Positions 1,769-10,108 of a stretch of DNA of 13,261 bases are shown one piece after another. A program made the position numbers and the translations under genes. The notes beneath the pieces are model-generated. The model saw only the letters and a list, made by a program, of their open reading frames with translations. It made no database searches and was not told the DNA's origin. Each line of letters starts with the position of its first letter. Within the stretch, counting starts at the first letter, position 1. Source of the DNA: Thermodesulfobacteriota bacterium (lineage in GTDB: Bacteria; Desulfobacterota; BSN033; UBA1163); the NCBI GenBank assembly GCA_030024065.1, contig JASEIE010000075.1, positions 1-13,261 on the forward strand, in the 5' to 3' direction.

Positions 1769-2104
1769 GGTTGCAGGTTTCAAGATGCAAGATGGTAGCC
1801 GCAGGCTTTAGCTTGCGTTAGTTCGGAGACTTGTAGCGTCGGCATTCCTGCCTGCCGGCAGGCAGGTATTGCCGACGATAGTTTCAAGTTGCAAGTTTCA
1901 AGATAGACGATGAACAATAAACAATGAACCAATCCGAAACTCGTAACCCGAAACTGTTTCATCCTTTCCGCATTTCGAATTCCGTATTCCGCATTTGATT
2001 ATCTCCCGATCCCCGTGTCTTTGTATCGCTCCGCATTCCGCAATCCGCTATTTTTTGTCTCCGAACTCCTAACTCCGAACTTTTTCCCACTTGCCACTTG
2101 CAAC
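1769..2104. repeat. Heptanucleotide-period degenerate repeat tract (about 48 units)
   Basis: Cut into successive 7-mers from 1769, the sequence falls into runs of near-identical words that keep one phase for about 336 bp while the word changes. Examples: GTTTCAA at 1881 and 1895 with GTTGCAA at 1888; AATGAAC at 1923 with GATGAAC at 1909 and AATAAAC at 1916; ATTCCGC at 1986 and again at 2035 (49 bp apart) with ATTCCGT at 1979 and AATCCGC at 2042; GAACTCC at 2063 with TAACTCC at 2070; TTGCCAC at 2091 with TTGCAAC at 2098. The stretch contains the palindrome at 1837-1877 in the same phase. ORFs crossing it carry no conserved protein pattern, and a 7-bp period is not what coding sequence produces. 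The function is unknown. It is reminiscent of the 7-bp STRR repeats of cyanobacteria but far more degenerate. Confidence 0.65.
1837..1877. repeat. 41-bp palindromic element with perfect 20-bp core
   Basis: The core at 1847-1866 is the perfect palindrome CCTGCCTGCCGGCAGGCAGG. It is enclosed by a second exact inverted pair, CGTCGGCA (1837-1844) and TGCCGACG (1870-1877), separated from the core by 2 and 3 nt. The whole could form a hairpin or cruciform of about 18 bp. A one-base variant of the core recurs at 12430-12449. No T-run follows, so a simple intrinsic terminator is unlikely. A smaller hairpin (CGCAGGCT/AGCTTGCG, 1800-1817) lies just upstream. From memory, such CCTGCCTGCC palindromes are dispersed between genes in many uncultured bacterial genomes. 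Confidence 0.8.
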
Positions 2105-2493: not shown

Positions 2494-4329
2494 CTGAAAA
2501 GATCAGTCATACACCTTTTGATTTTTTTCGTTTCCGTAAGTTTATTCTTTTTTCTTCTTTTCCCTCGCCTGATTTCCTCTCAGACTCCTTCACATGAAAA
2601 GATCATTCTGAGAGGTTTCGATGGAAGTCCTCTCACCCTGGAGAGCAATGTCCCATATAGCCCCAAAAAGACCTGTGGGGCCTGCCACGATTATAACCAC
2701 ATTATAAAGGGCTATCACTTCCAGCAGGGCCGGATCGATGGGTCGGGAAAAATTATTGTGAGCGATACCTACGATGGGAAATACCCCTGGAACCTTTCCC
2801 CGGGATTTTATGGAAAGCACTCACTCGCCTCGATGGATTCAAGCCAGTTGGCGAAGAAGGTCAACCAAAACCCCTCCGAAATAGATAAATCCTCTTACTT
2901 CTTCGTCCAGAATTGCGGCGCCTGCCATCCAGGAGGGGGATGGGGTGAATATGACCGGAGAGGAAATCTTTACTACAATGAGGAGAATAAAAAATTTGGC
3001 TTCGAACTCTCGGGGGATGACCCCAGACTCGATGGCGACTACACCTCTTTTAGCATGGGCAATGAGAAATATGGATCCCCCTGGAACCTCAGTGGTGTGA
3101 GTGAAGCTGACTGCCTCATCTGTCACCTGAGGGGATATCAATGGAAAGAGAGGGGAGCAGTTCTCAGGGGGCGATTCTTCAGATACGGGCCCGCTGCGGG
3201 AGCGGGCTGGGCAACATTAAAACTCTCACAGGACGAGTCTGGAAACCCGAAAGCTGACGCGGTCGAGGTGGATTATACCAGGAAAGAGGTGGCCGATTTT
3301 GACAACCTTCATCTTCAGATCGTGAAGCCACCTCCTGATGAAAATTGCTGGTCCTGTCATGCCATCTCCGGTGGAAGGAAGAGGGGCCGTGAGTGGAGTC
3401 CTGAAACAGACGCTCATAAAGCAAAGGGCCTGGACTGTGTATCCTGTCATCCAGGGAATAAGGAGCATAACTTTGCAAAGGGAAATACGCTTCAACAGAC
3501 GGTAAGAGATGATCTTGATCATACCATGTACTCCTGCGAAGACTGTCATTACAGAAGGAAGGATAAGAGGGCGCCGAGATACAGTCACCCCTTCTCTCCC
3601 CGCCATATGAAAAGGATTGCGTGCCAGACCTGTCATATTCCGTTTCAGACCGCATCCGCTGATCTCGTCTATGACCATGCCTCAACCGGAGAGACGAAAG
3701 TCTATGAGACCTCGAAATTTCTATCCAGCGATCCTTTCGACCCCAAAAGATCGATCGCTGGAATATCCGGCATCTGGTACCCGATGGTCAGGGAGTTAAA
3801 GGGGAGGATCATCCCGGTCAAATCCCTGGTGGTCATTTACTGGGGAGACCTCGATGAGAAGACGAATGTGGTGAAACCCATTTCTCTCTGGAAGATAAGG
3901 GATTTGAAGAAACCCCCTCTCAAAGATGACGATGGAGACGGAATCCCTGAAATCAACTCCCTCGATGAGATCAAAGCCTTTTTAAGGTTACTCAAGGGAA
4001 AGGATAAGTTTGGAAATCCCATTGCCAATCACCCCGTATTGATGAAAGGAGGCTTCCTCTATCGTCTCGACAAAAAGGGAGAAGTGGAAAGACTCAGACA
4101 TGAACTGGCAGAGGTCATTGACTTCTCAATCAGTCACAATGTGGTGTCCGGTTCCAGTGTGATCGGGGCGAGGGGCTGCAAGGATTGCCACACTAAAAAT
4201 TCCCCATTCTTCCTGAGAAAAATCCTCATCGATCCCTATGACGAAAAGGGAAACCCGGTCTATATCGAAGCCTGGGAAAAGATGGGAATCCCAAAAGAAA
4301 AACTGAGTCGCCTATTATTGGAACAGTAA
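2494..4329 (+). CDS. Exported octahaem c-type cytochrome
   Basis: The protein has eight CXXCH haem-attachment motifs. Numbered from the TTG at 2518 (603 residues), their first cysteines are at 53, 133, 199, 277, 307, 340, 369 and 554. A hydrophobic N-terminal segment (FFVSVSLFFFLLFP) is a secretion signal, placing the haems outside the cytoplasmic membrane. I prefer a start at CTG 2494, because AGAGAGGTGA ends 7 nt before it and the reading becomes MKRSVIHLLIFF, giving the basic n-region the TTG version lacks (611 residues). Histidines in GYHFQQG, KEHNFAKG and SHPFSPRHM are candidate distal ligands. Residues near 469-478 (DDDGDGIPE) form an EF-hand or type-3-repeat-like calcium loop between haems 7 and 8. 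All motifs end in H, so it is neither NrfA nor a canonical octahaem tetrathionate reductase, which have a CXXCK haem. It likely carries electrons in periplasmic or extracellular respiration; the partner is unknown. Confidence 0.9.
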   Translation: MKRSVIHLLIFFVSVSLFFFLLFPRLISSQTPSHEKIILRGFDGSPLTLESNVPYSPKKTCGACHDYNHIIKGYHFQQGRIDGSGKIIVSDTYDGKYPWNLSPGFYGKHSLASMDSSQLAKKVNQNPSEIDKSSYFFVQNCGACHPGGGWGEYDRRGNLYYNEENKKFGFELSGDDPRLDGDYTSFSMGNEKYGSPWNLSGVSEADCLICHLRGYQWKERGAVLRGRFFRYGPAAGAGWATLKLSQDESGNPKADAVEVDYTRKEVADFDNLHLQIVKPPPDENCWSCHAISGGRKRGREWSPETDAHKAKGLDCVSCHPGNKEHNFAKGNTLQQTVRDDLDHTMYSCEDCHYRRKDKRAPRYSHPFSPRHMKRIACQTCHIPFQTASADLVYDHASTGETKVYETSKFLSSDPFDPKRSIAGISGIWYPMVRELKGRIIPVKSLVVIYWGDLDEKTNVVKPISLWKIRDLKKPPLKDDDGDGIPEINSLDEIKAFLRLLKGKDKFGNPIANHPVLMKGGFLYRLDKKGEVERLRHELAEVIDFSISHNVVSGSSVIGARGCKDCHTKNSPFFLRKILIDPYDEKGNPVYIEAWEKMGIPKEKLSRLLLEQ

Positions 4330-5799: not shown

Positions 5800-7200
5800 A
5801 TGGTAGAGAAAAAATGGGAGGCCATGGAGGCTATCTTCAATCCAAAGTCCGTTGCAATCATCGGTGCATCAGACAATCCGGGGAAGTTGGGGTCCCATGT
5901 CATGAGGAGTTTAACCGAAGGCAAATATCCCGGCAGAATCTATCCCGTCAATCCGGGAAAAGATGAAATCCTTGGAATCAAAACTTACCCTTCCCTGCTC
6001 CAGGTCCCCGAAGCAATCGATCTCTCCATTATCGTGCTTCCAGCCGAATGGGTGCCCAAAACGATACGGGAGTGTGGTGAAAAAGGCGTAAAAGGAATCA
6101 TCCTCATCACAGCGGGTTTCAAAGAGATCGAGGATAGAAGAGGAGAATCTTTGCAAAGGGAGATCACCGAACTGGCAAACCAGTTCGGAATCAAAATCAT
6201 CGGCCCGAACACCTTCGGGATCGTCAATCTCCACCTTCCCCTCAATGCCTCTTTCACCCCGGAATTTTCCCGGGTGGAAAGAGGAGGAATCGGCTTTGTC
6301 AGTCAGAGTGGCGGGATGTCCCATTTAATGGCCTTCCTTTCGATGAGAAATCAACTCGGGTTCAGCAAGATCGCAGGCTTGGGAAACCGCTGCAATGTCG
6401 ATTTCTGGGACATGGTGGAGTATCTGGTAGAGGACCCAGAGACCGAAGTGATCGCCCTCTATCTCGAAGGGATCGATGAACCAAGAAAATTGATGGAGAT
6501 AGCAAAAAGGGGAAACCGGAAAAAACCGATTCTGGCCTATAAGGTGGGGCGCTCCCTCACGGGCGATCAGGCCTCCCAGTTTCATACCGGATCCCTTGCC
6601 GGAAAACATGAGATCTATGAGGCCGCCTTCAAGCAGGCTGGCATCTTAACAGTGGGGAGCTCGGAAGAGCTTTTGGATACGGCTAAGGCCTTGTCCCTCT
6701 CCTTACTCCCTGACGGGAAGAGAGTGGCTGTCCTCTCCGGTCAGGCGGGCCCCGGTATGGCGGCCTGTGATGTATGCGAGATCGAAGGACTATCGATTCC
6801 GCCCTTCTCTTCTGAGACTCAAAAAAGGATTGACGCCCTTCTCCCTCCTCTTGCCATCAGGACAAACCCGGTTGATATGGGGCCTGCCTGGTATGACGCT
6901 GCAGCCATTAGGGGGATCGTGGAAGCAGTCTCATCAGACCACAACATCGATGCCATCGTCCTCTGTATCATGTTTGCCTCGGCCAACAGGGCTGCCGTGG
7001 GGACCCTTTCTCGTCTTTTGCTTCAGAGGAGACAGAATAAACCTGTGATATGCTGTATCTCTTCGCCTCCGGGAATCTGGGATGAGGAAATTAGGTTGCT
7101 CGAACAATCGGGAATTCCAAACTATCCCACCCCGGAGAGGGCTGCTAAAGCACTTGCGAACCTGTACCGGCTTAAAAAGATGAGAACAGGAGGCGATTAG
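5800..7200 (+). CDS. ADP-forming acetyl/acyl-CoA synthetase, alpha subunit
   Basis: The 466-residue protein matches the usual length of stand-alone alpha chains of NDP-forming acyl-CoA synthetases, which interconvert acyl-CoA, ADP and phosphate with acid, CoA and ATP. Order: a Rossmann CoA-binding domain at residues about 12-105 (NPKSVAIIGASDNPGKLG), IIGPNTFGIVN at 134-143, the ligase domain beginning GIGFVSQSGGMSHLM at 164-177, LGNRCNVDFWDMVEYL at 194-209, and QFHTGSLAG at 260-268, whose His 262 fits the phosphohistidine of the family. A second ligase-CoA domain (VAVLSGQAGPGMAACD) and a C-terminal part ending PTPERAAKAL follow. The start is ATG 5800 with AGGAG 8 nt upstream. No ATP-grasp beta subunit is next to it, so the partner must be encoded elsewhere or the protein acts differently. 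It is cytosolic and could conserve energy from acyl-CoA in fermentation or fatty/aromatic acid oxidation. Confidence 0.92.
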   Translation: MVEKKWEAMEAIFNPKSVAIIGASDNPGKLGSHVMRSLTEGKYPGRIYPVNPGKDEILGIKTYPSLLQVPEAIDLSIIVLPAEWVPKTIRECGEKGVKGIILITAGFKEIEDRRGESLQREITELANQFGIKIIGPNTFGIVNLHLPLNASFTPEFSRVERGGIGFVSQSGGMSHLMAFLSMRNQLGFSKIAGLGNRCNVDFWDMVEYLVEDPETEVIALYLEGIDEPRKLMEIAKRGNRKKPILAYKVGRSLTGDQASQFHTGSLAGKHEIYEAAFKQAGILTVGSSEELLDTAKALSLSLLPDGKRVAVLSGQAGPGMAACDVCEIEGLSIPPFSSETQKRIDALLPPLAIRTNPVDMGPAWYDAAAIRGIVEAVSSDHNIDAIVLCIMFASANRAAVGTLSRLLLQRRQNKPVICCISSPPGIWDEEIRLLEQSGIPNYPTPERAAKALANLYRLKKMRTGGD

Positions 7201-8291: not shown

Positions 8292-9215
8292 ATGAGAGCG
8301 ATGGTATTTACCTATTTTTTACTCATCCCCTTGCTGGTAGCCAGCGGGTTGCCTGCCCTCTCCGCAGAGAAGGACGGAAGGAAGACGGAGATGAAGAAAA
8401 TACTTCCATTGAAAGTGGGCGGTTATGAATCAGACAAGAAAGATGAATTTTATGATCGAAACAGAGCCTTTCGCTATATGGATGGGGCAGCAGAACTCTA
8501 TCGGTCTTACTCATTTAAGCTCTTGATGGTCCGCCGCTATCTGAAAGCAGGCCATCCTCCCATCATTATCGAACTCTTCGATATGGGTTCATCGGAAGAT
8601 GCCTTTGGAATCTTCTCTTACGAAACAGGAGGAGAAGAGATGGAGGTGGGTCAGGGGGCGGATTATGGAGGAGGCCTCCTCAGGTTCTGGAAGGGGAAGT
8701 ACTTCGCTAATGTCTATGCCGAGAAAGAGACGCCCTCCACAAAGAAAGACACTTTACAGATCGGACAGACCATCGCCAGAAACATCAAACAGGAAGGTCA
8801 AAAGCCAAAACTGATCTATCTTTTGCCCAAGGAAAACCTCTTAGAAAGAAACATCTGTTACTTTCACCTCCATCAGGGCCTCAATTATCACCACTTTGTC
8901 TCCCACGACAACATCCTGCACCTGGGGGAACGAACGAATGCCGTACTGGCTTCCTATTTTTATGCCGGAGTGAAGGGAAGGACCTTCCTTCTCTTGATCC
9001 AGTATCCCGCAGAGAAACTTGCTGAAAAGGCTTTTCAAAGTTTTATGAAGGCCTACATGCCAGAGTCCTCCTCAGGGGTAATCCGGACGGAAAGCGGCAA
9101 ATGGACAGCTTCGCAATCTCATCAGAAATATGTCATTGCGGTTTTCGATGCACCCTCCAGAGAAAAAGCAGAAGAAATGATAGGGACAACCGTTAAGAGA
9201 TTGGAGGTAAAATGA
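8292..9215 (+). CDS. Exported DUF6599-type protein
   Basis: The 307-residue protein has an N-terminal signal peptide (MRAMVFTYFLLIPLLVASGL, with cleavage likely after ALSA near residue 25). The diagnostic stretch is YMDGAAELYRSYSF at residues 62-75, followed by IIIELFDMGSSEDAFGIFSY at 91-110. Both are characteristic of the uncharacterised DUF6599 family as I know it. The second half contains HLHQGLNYHHF and a strand-rich region ending in KRLEVK. The ribosome site is poor; a good AGGAGG is 17 nt upstream, inside the decayed Fe-S gene, consistent with former coupling. It overlaps the DUF362 gene by 4 bp, so the two are probably translated together and act at the same extracytoplasmic site. The biochemical role is unknown. 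Confidence 0.85.
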   Translation: MRAMVFTYFLLIPLLVASGLPALSAEKDGRKTEMKKILPLKVGGYESDKKDEFYDRNRAFRYMDGAAELYRSYSFKLLMVRRYLKAGHPPIIIELFDMGSSEDAFGIFSYETGGEEMEVGQGADYGGGLLRFWKGKYFANVYAEKETPSTKKDTLQIGQTIARNIKQEGQKPKLIYLLPKENLLERNICYFHLHQGLNYHHFVSHDNILHLGERTNAVLASYFYAGVKGRTFLLLIQYPAEKLAEKAFQSFMKAYMPESSSGVIRTESGKWTASQSHQKYVIAVFDAPSREKAEEMIGTTVKRLEVK

Positions 9216-10108
9216 CCGTGAAGAAGAACAGAGTCATTACACGGCGGGACTTCATTCGAGGCACCGCCTATACCGCCATTGCCGCGGCGCTTGGCTCATC
9301 CCCCAGTGGAGAAGCGAAGGCGGAAGAGAAAGTTAAAGTCGTCCTCATCCGTGACAAGAATGTGATCGATTCGCAGGGTCAAATCAATCAGAGGATTCTT
9401 CAGCGGATGCTCGATCAGGGAGTGTGTCAATTGTTGGGTGTGGAGAAACCAATTCAGGCCTGGAGGAAATTGATCAAACCAAATGACATCGTGGGAATCA
9501 AAAGCAATGTCTGGTTCTACCTGCCTACTCCTGAGGAACTGGAAATGGCCATTGTGAAGCGGGTGATGGAGGTTGGCGTTCCTAAAAAGAGTATCGGCAT
9601 TGACGACCGAGGGGTGCTGAATAATCCCATATTTAAGTCCTCCACAGCGCTCATAAATGTCCGGCCCCTGAGGACCCATCACTGGTCCGGAATCGGTGGT
9701 TGTATCAAGAATTATGTGATGTTCGTTGCCTCTCCCTGGGCTTATCACAGTGATGCCTGCTCACCGCTTGCCTCGATATGGAATCAACCCATTGTTAAGG
9801 GCAAGACCCGGCTGAATATCTTGAGTTTGATCCGAACCCAATTCTACAACCGGGGAGCCCATCACTTTGACCGGAGATTTGTCTCGGAGTATAAAGGCCT
9901 TCTCATCGGGAAGGATCCTGTGGCGCTAGATGCTGTGGGTGCCCGCCTCCTTCAACTTCAGCGGGTTGGCTATTTCGGTGAGGATCGCCCTCTGGACAAT
10001 CCCCCTACACATATTTTTGCCGCTGATGAGAAATACAAGCTCGGGGTGAGCGACCTCCGTCGCATTGACATTGTTAAATTGGGCTGGATGGAAAACTCGT
10101 TGATATAG
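9212..10108 (+). CDS. Tat-exported DUF362 protein
   Basis: The 298-residue protein begins in an ATGA overlap with the DUF6599 gene. A twin-arginine signal, ITRRDFIRG with Arg 11 and Arg 12, is followed by a short hydrophobic stretch (AYTAIAAALG) and a cleavage zone near SGEAKAEE, so export in folded form with a cofactor is likely. The body matches DUF362 (PF04015): KPNDIVGIKSNVWF at residues about 90-103, ALINVRPLRTHHWSGIGGCIKNYVM at about 146-170, and GLLIGKDPVALDAVGARLLQ near 230-249. The ferredoxin-like C-terminal domain found in some DUF362 proteins is absent, and no CxxC cluster is seen. The function of the family is not settled; redox or metal-cofactor roles are plausible. The gene ends 12 bp from the convergent vapC. 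Confidence 0.88.
   Translation: MTVKKNRVITRRDFIRGTAYTAIAAALGSSPSGEAKAEEKVKVVLIRDKNVIDSQGQINQRILQRMLDQGVCQLLGVEKPIQAWRKLIKPNDIVGIKSNVWFYLPTPEELEMAIVKRVMEVGVPKKSIGIDDRGVLNNPIFKSSTALINVRPLRTHHWSGIGGCIKNYVMFVASPWAYHSDACSPLASIWNQPIVKGKTRLNILSLIRTQFYNRGAHHFDRRFVSEYKGLLIGKDPVALDAVGARLLQLQRVGYFGEDRPLDNPPTHIFAADEKYKLGVSDLRRIDIVKLGWMENSLI

Follow-up and report, generated by a model that had tools for sequence, protein, structure and literature searches.

What keeps a 336-bp intergenic stretch in steps of seven bases while the repeated word keeps changing? The stretch lies at positions 1769–2104 of the window, by which we mean the whole 13,261-nt contig that was analysed (JASEIE010000075.1, from a Thermodesulfobacteriota bacterium). 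The initial annotation, made from the sequence alone, described it as a mosaic of heptamers in one unbroken frame. We propose, tentatively and with a probability of roughly 0.45, that the tract is an intergenic palindrome built up in layers, in which short inverted repeats seed slippage in 7-nt steps, independently in each arm, and that it belongs to a class with members in many relatives. Both the period of 7 and the inverted pairing of arms are seen in the window too; the other features of the class come from the relatives.

Period and layout of the tract in the window

A lag-7 self-match above that of shuffled sequence had been named beforehand as a check, and it was found: the match over 1769–2104 is 0.474, as compared to 0.253 ± 0.024 in 2000 dinucleotide shuffles (z = 9.1), none of which reaches 0.474. 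By the same shuffles, lag 14 is also raised (z = 6.9), with a weaker excess at lags 8 and 21 (z = 2.6 for both). A coding origin of the tract was considered and rejected, as the period is 7 and not 3; a minus-strand open reading frame (1959–2279) crosses the tract.

The single frame of constant phase does not hold up, however. About 85 bp (1795–1879) are taken up by REP-like palindromes, and the lag-7 match is close to background (0.24–0.31) for 42-bp segments that start at 1791–1841. A second weak patch is found for starts at 1981–1991 (0.31 and 0.24). In Tandem Repeats Finder, the period of 7 breaks up into five separate arrays (1880–1902, 1966–1995, 2030–2048, 2059–2081, and 2087–2101). Also, the words that carry a CCG/TCG landmark are in differing phases. 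The landmark's position modulo 7 is 2 at 1934, 1941, and 1948; 1 at four positions from 1968 to 1989; 4 at 2006 and 2013; 3 at 2026; 1 again at 2031, 2038, and 2045; and 3 again at 2061 and 2075. So, the heptamer frame shifts several times along the tract. The word ATTCCGC does occur at 1986 and 2035, as was claimed (and once more in the window, at 6796), but the spacing of exactly seven units is poor evidence for a common phase, as a weak stretch lies between the two copies and they would be in phase by chance with probability 1/7. The mosaic is truly periodic, but a large share of it consists of inverted pairing, a feature that the initial annotation overlooked.

For the most part, the tract forms a nested palindrome that has inverted arrays of words on its left and on its right. 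From left to right, its parts are:

1769–1797, plus strand: outer left arm with weak heptamers (GTTGCAGGTTTCAAGATGCAAG); lag-7 match 17/28 from 1764; 1776–1791 is inverted to 2090–2105 (score 10)
1795–1817, no strand: REP-like hairpin GTAGCCGCAGGCTTTAGCTTGCG, non-heptameric, recognized from its sequence; GTAGCCGCAGGCTTTAGC has three matches in 1.40 Mb of relatives, all in genome G008
1820–1830, plus strand: second left arm AGTTCGGAGAC; perfect 11-bp inverted match to 2057–2067
1833–1881, no strand: REP-like GTCGGCATT..TATTGCCGAC, whose loop holds a second palindrome, CCTGCCTGCCGGCAGGCAGG (1847–1866); from the inverted-repeat scan
1880–1902, plus strand: inner left arm of three heptamers, GTTTCAA/GTTGCAA (Tandem Repeats Finder); 1880–1899 is inverted to 1936–1955 and 1881–1896 to 2089–2104 (score 12 each)
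1903–1929, plus strand: heptamers GATGAAC/AATAAAC/AATGAAC; lag-7 match 16/28 from 1904
1934–1955, minus strand: inner right arm with words CCGAAAC/CGTAACC; inverted partner of 1880–1899
1966–1995, minus strand: right-side array of TTCCGCA (Tandem Repeats Finder); landmark phase 1
2030–2048, minus strand: right-side array of TCCGCAA (Tandem Repeats Finder); landmark phase 1
2057–2081, minus strand: second right arm with CTCCGAA words (Tandem Repeats Finder); inverted partner of 1820–1830; landmark phase 3
2087–2104, minus strand: outer right arm with CCACTTG words (Tandem Repeats Finder); inverted partner of 1776–1791 and of 1881–1896

The stretch at 1795–1879 consists of the GTAGCCGCAGGC..GCTTGCG hairpin, the 11-bp arm, and the GTCGGCATT..TATTGCCGAC palindrome around CCTGCCTGCCGGCAGGCAGG. 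Five copies of GTCGGCA..TGCCGAC in the relatives' loci have short, uninterrupted loops that lack a second palindrome (for example, at L068:16136).

Within 1760–2110, nine inverted-repeat segments score at least 8. Five of these score at least 10, while the mean for 200 dinucleotide shuffles, which destroy the periodicity, is 0.37; the best single score, 12, is reached by 10 of the 200 shuffles. Some pairs are roughly concentric: 1880–1899/1936–1955 (centre 1917), 1820–1830 with 2057–2067 and with 2073–2081 (centres 1943 and 1950), and 1776–1791/2090–2105 (centre 1940). Others are not, namely 1881–1896/2089–2104 (centre 1992) and 1924–1953/1973–2002 (centre 1963).

Such a layout could be that of an mRNA structure. 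The tracts might be stem-loops that are selected in operons for 3'-end protection, attenuation, or translational uncoupling, with arms that co-evolve to pair. The predicted fold of 1768–2104 is indeed more stable than expected (z = −5.0 on the plus strand and −2.6 on the minus strand). However, the heptameric part by itself (1880–2104) folds no better than shuffled sequence on the plus strand (z = 0.5), though it does on the minus strand (z = −3.2). On the plus strand, the stability is therefore probably owed to the left part, where the REP-like hairpins are. No Rfam family matched the window at gathering scores.

Similar tracts in relatives and their placement between genes

We picked relatives via the flanking multihaem cytochrome (Pfam Cytochrome_C7), which gave ten loci at 66–74% identity in MAGs whose titles give Thermodesulfobacteriota, Deltaproteobacteria, Syntrophaceae, or simply "uncultured". 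All ten genomes contain arrays of three RTTNCGR units (19–134 matches each with at most one mismatch, as compared to 0–4 for the reversed control pattern). In a sample of 297 genomes from the phylum, 74 have at least one exact match to RTTNCGR and 27 have a match to the reversed control. The initial annotation named an absence of similar tracts elsewhere in the genome as a refutation; in relatives, at least, similar tracts are abundant. Across the phylum, the counts of RTTNCGR are patchy, and the highest is 179, in G160. The reversed control is itself frequent in a few genomes (52 matches in G266, 13 in G280, and 21 in G068), and some genomes, such as G266, match the control only, which implies that other heptamer words exist.

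A period of 7 prevails in this material. In five of six samples, more tracts are found at lag 7 than at any other lag, and in G002 lag 7 ties with lag 6 (one of the six, a mixed sample, includes L141, which was chosen for its hits). Among arms at score 11, in 1.19 Mb, there are 141 at lag 7, 90 at lag 14, 41 at lag 8, 31 at lag 6, 26 at lag 12, and 1–11 at each of the other lags from 4 to 15. At the looser score of 9, in 1.40 Mb, the counts are 221 at lag 7, 182 at lag 14, 108 at lag 6, 93 at lag 8, 86 at lag 12, 79 at lag 16, 68 at lag 9, and 15–47 at lags 4, 5, 10, 11, 13, and 15. Because other lags also yield arms at score 9, a share of these arms may be due to chance. They underlie our counts of neighbouring pairs, polarity, wobble, nesting, co-occupancy, word similarity, and consensus words. 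(Arms at scores of 7–8 were used for the arm-swap and unit-order tests and for the comparison within and between arms.) Gene positions are from a home-made open reading frame caller that uses codon scores, the contigs are those of MAGs, and the thresholds were set in this analysis. Regions L064–L083 of G008 and L141 of G006 were chosen for their pattern hits; the rest of the material is sequential contigs or syntenic neighbourhoods, and the sequential G008 contigs omit C8 and C20 (with one and two listed hits).

Within an arm the word is kept over many units: in 39 long arms, the match at lags of 7, 14, 21, and 28 is 0.79, 0.73, 0.70, and 0.69. Across arms, the words are diverse: the 172 arms have 84 different consensus heptamers, and many of these are one base apart. 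We considered G-quadruplexes as a common denominator and rejected them, as four runs of G3 or C3 are found in only 4 of the 172 arms and any such run in 27. A 200-bp mosaic in another genome (L121:2945–3144, on contig C3 of G001) has words that shift stepwise, with ACAG, GCAG, GACG, and GCGG cores; the surrounding 2791–3270 is predicted to fold as one long nested structure (−108 kcal/mol, which is a raw energy without a shuffle baseline). Palindromes with the same layout are also made of 8-nt words (TGGAATAA, CAGGATAT) and of a 9-nt word (TTGGGTTAC), in gaps numbered 0 and 4 of L154, 10 of L125, and 0 of L130.

Counting gaps of 50 bp or longer in nine groups of genomes (including the pattern-chosen L064–L083 and L141), a tract is present in 97 of 449 between co-directional genes, in 11 of 70 between convergent genes, and in 7 of 97 between divergent genes; 32 further tracts are in or at called genes or edges. 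The window's own tract lies between divergent genes and so is an untypical case of the class. Placement between co-directional genes is what would be expected of mRNA stem-loops. Among 145 arms in co-directional gaps, a fraction of 0.49 start within 30 nt past the upstream stop, as compared to about 0.36 if they were placed uniformly, which is a moderate enrichment.

The arms also have a polarity. Those that are near a stop only are mostly purine-rich (55 of 59, with 3 pyrimidine-rich; 19 of 20 without G008), and those that are near the next start only are mostly pyrimidine-rich (32 of 44, with 8 purine-rich; 20 of 23 without G008). The two arms of 55 two-armed co-directional gaps are purine-rich then pyrimidine-rich in 33, the reverse in 3, both purine-rich in 13, and both pyrimidine-rich in 3; the other 3 have an even arm. 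Gaps without arms show no purine shift (purine share of 0.51 in the 5' half and 0.53 in the 3' half). The polarity is unclear in the few arms from convergent gaps (8 purine-rich and 2 pyrimidine-rich on the left, 3 and 4 on the right) and from divergent gaps (3 and 1 on the left, 3 and 2 on the right). A G-left/C-right polarity, an early reading, holds in part. After stops, G exceeds C in 45 of 59 arms and the reverse is true of 7 (33 vs. 3 of 39 in G008 and 12 vs. 4 of 20 elsewhere), but before starts the counts are 21 and 20 of 44, and outside G008 they run the other way (14 with G above C and 7 with C above G, of 23). Because the G/C rule fails near starts outside G008, we adopted the purine/pyrimidine polarity instead.

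The arms of a gap and the turnover of words

If the arms of a gap arose from one inverted seed, they should share a word in opposite orientation. Neighbouring arms form 49 pairs, which are inverted in 20 cases, direct in 8, and unrelated in 21; by base composition, the 20 inverted pairs are 9 GC, 5 CG, and 6 other. In 59 two-armed gaps (one arm was allowed at a looser score), the inverted match exceeds the direct match in 41, the direct match is higher in 14, and 4 are tied. A gap's own arms have an inverted score of 0.52, whereas exchanging arms among gaps of one genome lowers it to 0.29 (n = 47, P = 3.5 × 10−9; the other 12 of the 59 gaps were dropped because their genomes had too few), although a quarter of the swapped partners match as well as the own partner does. 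So, the arms of one gap tend to share a word.

Shared words would also be expected if the arms were kept complementary in an mRNA. Further, armed co-directional gaps are predicted to fold slightly better than gaps without arms (median z of −2.9 for 85 gaps vs. −1.9 for 294 gaps, P = 0.0045), as RNA stem-loops should, but this is expected from an inverted pair of words in any case. Selection for RNA pairing should favour G.U-type over A.C-type mismatches between arms, and we found no such bias in 67 gaps with arms (147 vs. 139, P = 0.68) or in 135 gaps without arms (231 vs. 246). In a control with tRNAs, which are selected for pairing, the counts are 10 and 0 of 175 stem pairs; the 8 tRNAs came from a program that itself demands pairing. 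Moreover, the units of one arm resemble each other more than they resemble those of the other arm (identity of 0.83 vs. 0.77), and 17 of 19 inverted pairs show this within-arm excess (P = 2 × 10−5). Among 56 simulated joint copies, the within-arm value was higher in 1, 1, and 11 at an extra divergence of 0.05, 0.10, and 0.15. However, the real arms were chosen by their within-arm periodicity, which the simulation copies incompletely, and this biases the comparison toward the within-arm side. A test of the order of units in the two arms gave a signal in none of 19 pairs and is no evidence either way, as only 2–3 of 19 true copies would be detectable. Given the mismatches and the uniformity within arms, we consider it quite unlikely that mRNA stem-loops are the explanation.

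A shared word, opposite orientation, uniformity within arms, and the lack of an RNA bias together point to independent 7-nt expansion around an inverted seed. In the model that we favour, a short stem-loop in the gap would seed the process, and DNA synthesis would then slip by 7 nt at a time, separately in the two arms, which would turn both into arrays of one word in opposite orientation. Point changes would make the word drift. Later stem-loops that arise in the loop, or that insert there, could start a new word and so build up a mosaic. The arrays would survive in places where their harm is slight, for the most part in gaps between co-directional genes, and no function in the cell would be required. 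Nesting fits this layering of seeds. In co-directional gaps with arms, 25 pairs of inverted repeats are nested, 8 are sequential, and 2 are interleaved, yet nesting is unspecific, as gaps that lack arms often have it as well (68, 66, and 14); the nested counts include some single palindromes that are broken by an indel. Of the ideas in the initial annotation, slippage in 7-nt steps and a likeness to the STRR repeats fit best.

Several observations count against slippage. First, it is not obvious why the step should be 7, and words of 8 and 9 nt exist in a similar layout. Second, slippage leaves the purine-rich left arms and pyrimidine-rich right arms unexplained. Third, only 20 of the 49 neighbouring pairs are inverted, and one family of about 140 bp behaves like a dispersed element. 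Finally, the window's copy is in a divergent gap, and the enrichment of arms near stops is moderate.

The dispersed family raises the possibility that the tracts are non-autonomous mobile palindromes (MITE- or REPIN-like) that inserted into gaps, with the heptameric arms as recognition ends. The REP, BIME, REPIN, and MITE palindromes have a fixed core sequence. Like them, our tracts are dispersed intergenic palindromes, and the window's tract contains REP-like pieces. The family has heptameric arms and is palindromic; copies of about 140–150 bp with TTTCGGATTTCGATATTCG arms lie at 2584–2724, 4063–4202, and 4931–5083 of L105 (G003), and among the matches listed there are many copies in G001, G002, G009, and G011, at about 74–87% identity, so that it is dispersed in all four genomes queried. 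The flanks of arms match another locus in 17 of 98 cases in G008 and in 17 of 45 in G002–G004. The nesting, and the Y1 transposases (Pfam Y1_Tnp) in 13 of 14 genomes, would also fit mobility, with RAYTs and other Y1 enzymes counted together. Part of the material, namely the family and the 17 of 98 flanks in G008, clearly has a contribution from mobile elements. But unlike REP or REPIN elements, most heptamer arms lack a conserved core outside of their words: for 81 of the 98 G008 arms, the masked flanks (60 nt on each side) match no other sampled arm locus at E = 10−3. Also, there are many different words, and G154 has 112 exact matches to RTTNCGR and no match to Y1_Tnp. As an account of the whole class, we think that mobile palindromes are unlikely.

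Another way to place the same word on both sides is two-ended templated addition. After a break at the centre of a palindrome, both 3' ends would be extended with one purine-rich 7-nt word, much as at telomeres, and then rejoined. Such a mechanism would put one word on either side, make the purine-rich strands converge, leave each arm homogeneous by itself, and lead to repeated nesting, in line with what is seen in co-directional gaps. It also predicts that the polarity should be equal in convergent and divergent gaps, which the few arms there do not clearly show, and the words of 8 and 9 nt are contrary to it. We know of no precedent for 7-nt addition in bacteria and regard this mechanism as very unlikely.

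Turnover of words at a fixed place, as seen in orthologous gaps, is a further point in favour of the slippage model. The set comprises 41 groups of co-directional gaps, with 128 gaps of which 31 are occupied; the comparison is between species, whose genes are about 75–90% identical. There are 24 co-occupied pairs, as compared to 9.2 ± 2.7 expected, and 0 of 5000 permutations reach 24 (1 of 5000 in a re-run and if stratified by length). One gap that is occupied in five of five species accounts for 10 of the 24 pairs. Without it, there are 14 pairs vs. 6.5 expected (P = 0.004), or 6.8 if stratified by length (P = 0.01).

The words at these gaps mostly differ. Only 3 of the 24 co-occupied pairs share words (similarity of at least 0.89), and the median similarity is 0.30, as compared to 0.29 for arms from unrelated gaps. 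In the five-species gap, the words are of the CAGTGAT or CAGTAAT type in G001 and G003, GACGATG in G002, CAATGAT in G004, and GCGGATT in G008. As some of the differing words are one base apart (CAATGAT and CAGTGAT), drift is possible. Another orthologous gap has GTTCGGA arms in G002 and GCGGATT arms on both sides in G011. In a third gap, G002, G003, and G008 have an outer palindrome of 8-nt words in common but not what lies inside it; a CCCGTTAGAA..TTCTAACGGG hairpin is present in G003 only. These sequences suggest that a habit of copying in 7-nt steps, rather than the words themselves, may persist between species.

The turnover of words also bears on the proposal, made in the initial annotation, of an array for a protein that reads 7-nt modules. 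The tracts could be arrays of sites at which a global protein binds DNA or RNA. This role has been proposed, in the parts of these papers that we drew on, for paired repeats in Geobacter (IHF/HU; PMC2700814) and for TAACTGA repeats (Csp or S1; PMC4679880), and the fixed spacing of the units would be in keeping with it. However, 84 consensus words in 172 arms and differing words at the same gap disfavour a sequence-specific reader. A word-blind reader of heptamer arrays is possible. Overall, we consider binding arrays to be highly improbable as the origin of the tracts.

Comparison with known heptamer repeats

The view that such a tract is undescribed was too strong, as close analogues are in print (PMC4692102, PMC2700814, PMC4679880). 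For this bacterial group, we found no description of such tracts in the literature that we searched, whose coverage mostly excludes subscription journals. The statements below rest on parts of the three papers.

The closest parallel in placement comes from Rehm et al. (2015; PMC4692102), who describe intergenic, quadruplex-forming heptamers (GGGNATC/GGGGAYT) in Xanthomonas and Nostoc. According to the parts that we used, these are mostly between aligned open reading frames and are under-represented between divergent ones, and the G strand is either sense within 50 bp after a stop or antisense within 50 bp before an open reading frame. In Xcc, 186 patterns were found and convergent pairs occur in 70 cases, and 90% of the repeats lie between the same open reading frames in two Xanthomonas species, with varying length and sequence. 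The tracts described here share the 7-nt tandem unit, the co-directional placement, the rarity in divergent gaps, the convergent pairing, and the occupation of the same gene pairs (24 vs. 9.2 expected). The orientation rule for the G strand holds here for purines, in that 55 of 59 arms after a stop are purine-rich and 32 of 44 before a start are pyrimidine-rich. In contrast to the one family of quadruplex-forming words described in those parts, there are many words per genome here, they mostly differ between species at the same gap, and the commonest consensus words differ from GGGNATC/GGGGAYT.

In Geobacter metallireducens, classes 1–3 of "global regulator binding sites" are tandem units of 7 or 8 nt that are paired on opposite strands (PMC2700814). 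In the portion of that paper at hand, a variable distance within pairs is stated for classes 1 and 2, and the proBA gap is occupied by other sequence in the sister species. The tandem units that are paired on opposite strands resemble ours, both in the relatives and in the window, but the Geobacter consensus words are few and fixed (MTYCTGA for class 3, GTTGCTYN, and TCTCCGTS) and are read there as IHF/HU sites.

The TAACTGA repeats of Beggiatoaceae, Cyanobacteria, and Bacteroidetes are intergenic heptamers in direct sets, most of them upstream of starts (PMC4679880). From the same partial source, 36 sets are split by a related 7-mer, one inverted repeat occurs in 170 sets, and in Microcystis the word is mixed with other heptamers. 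Unlike in those sets, inverted pairs are common here. Arrays of TNATCAG, which on the other strand is TAACTGA if N is T, are found in 8 of 14 relatives' genomes; by eye, TAACTGA is not among the words of the window's tract. The STRR repeats of cyanobacteria are short tandem heptamers, and the likeness to them, by description, rests on the heptamer unit. Three different heptanucleotides are mentioned for Calothrix in the part of PMC4692102 that we used.

Slippage related to a 7-nt contact of the polymerase is credited to earlier work in the heptamer-repeat papers, so far as those parts go, and in one of them by name to Mrazek et al. (2007). What the present group adds is that many words occur at once, that the words at a fixed place differ both inside a species and from one species to another, and that a function in RNA was tested against. 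A broader possibility is a word-blind DNA process that steps by 7 nt. It would write convergent, purine-strand-first arrays at the two sides of an operon gap and overwrite them in the course of evolution. Position, period, and polarity would then be inherited and words would not, and the heptamers of Xanthomonas, Nostoc, Geobacter, and Beggiatoa would be the same process frozen on one word. We think that this generalization is improbable. Still, heptamer repeats in bacterial gaps have so far been discussed separately, as G-quadruplexes, IHF/HU sites, or sites for RNA-binding proteins. Here one layout comes with many words, of which few are capable of forming quadruplexes, and species mostly differ in the word at a given gap. 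This points to a shared origin by mutation. It also makes the question of why seven testable, by comparing strains.

We also noticed two other features of the window. At 2228–2259, TGAGCTTGTCGAAGCA occurs twice in perfect tandem, close to a GACAGGCTCAGGGTGA repeat; the matches in 1.40 Mb of relatives number three for GAGCTTGTCGAAG and four for GACAGGCTCAGGGTGA. At 8292–10108, about 4 kb from the multihaem cytochrome gene, a DUF6599 gene is directly followed by a DUF362 gene (both by Pfam), and we take the start of the DUF362 gene to be twin-arginine-like.
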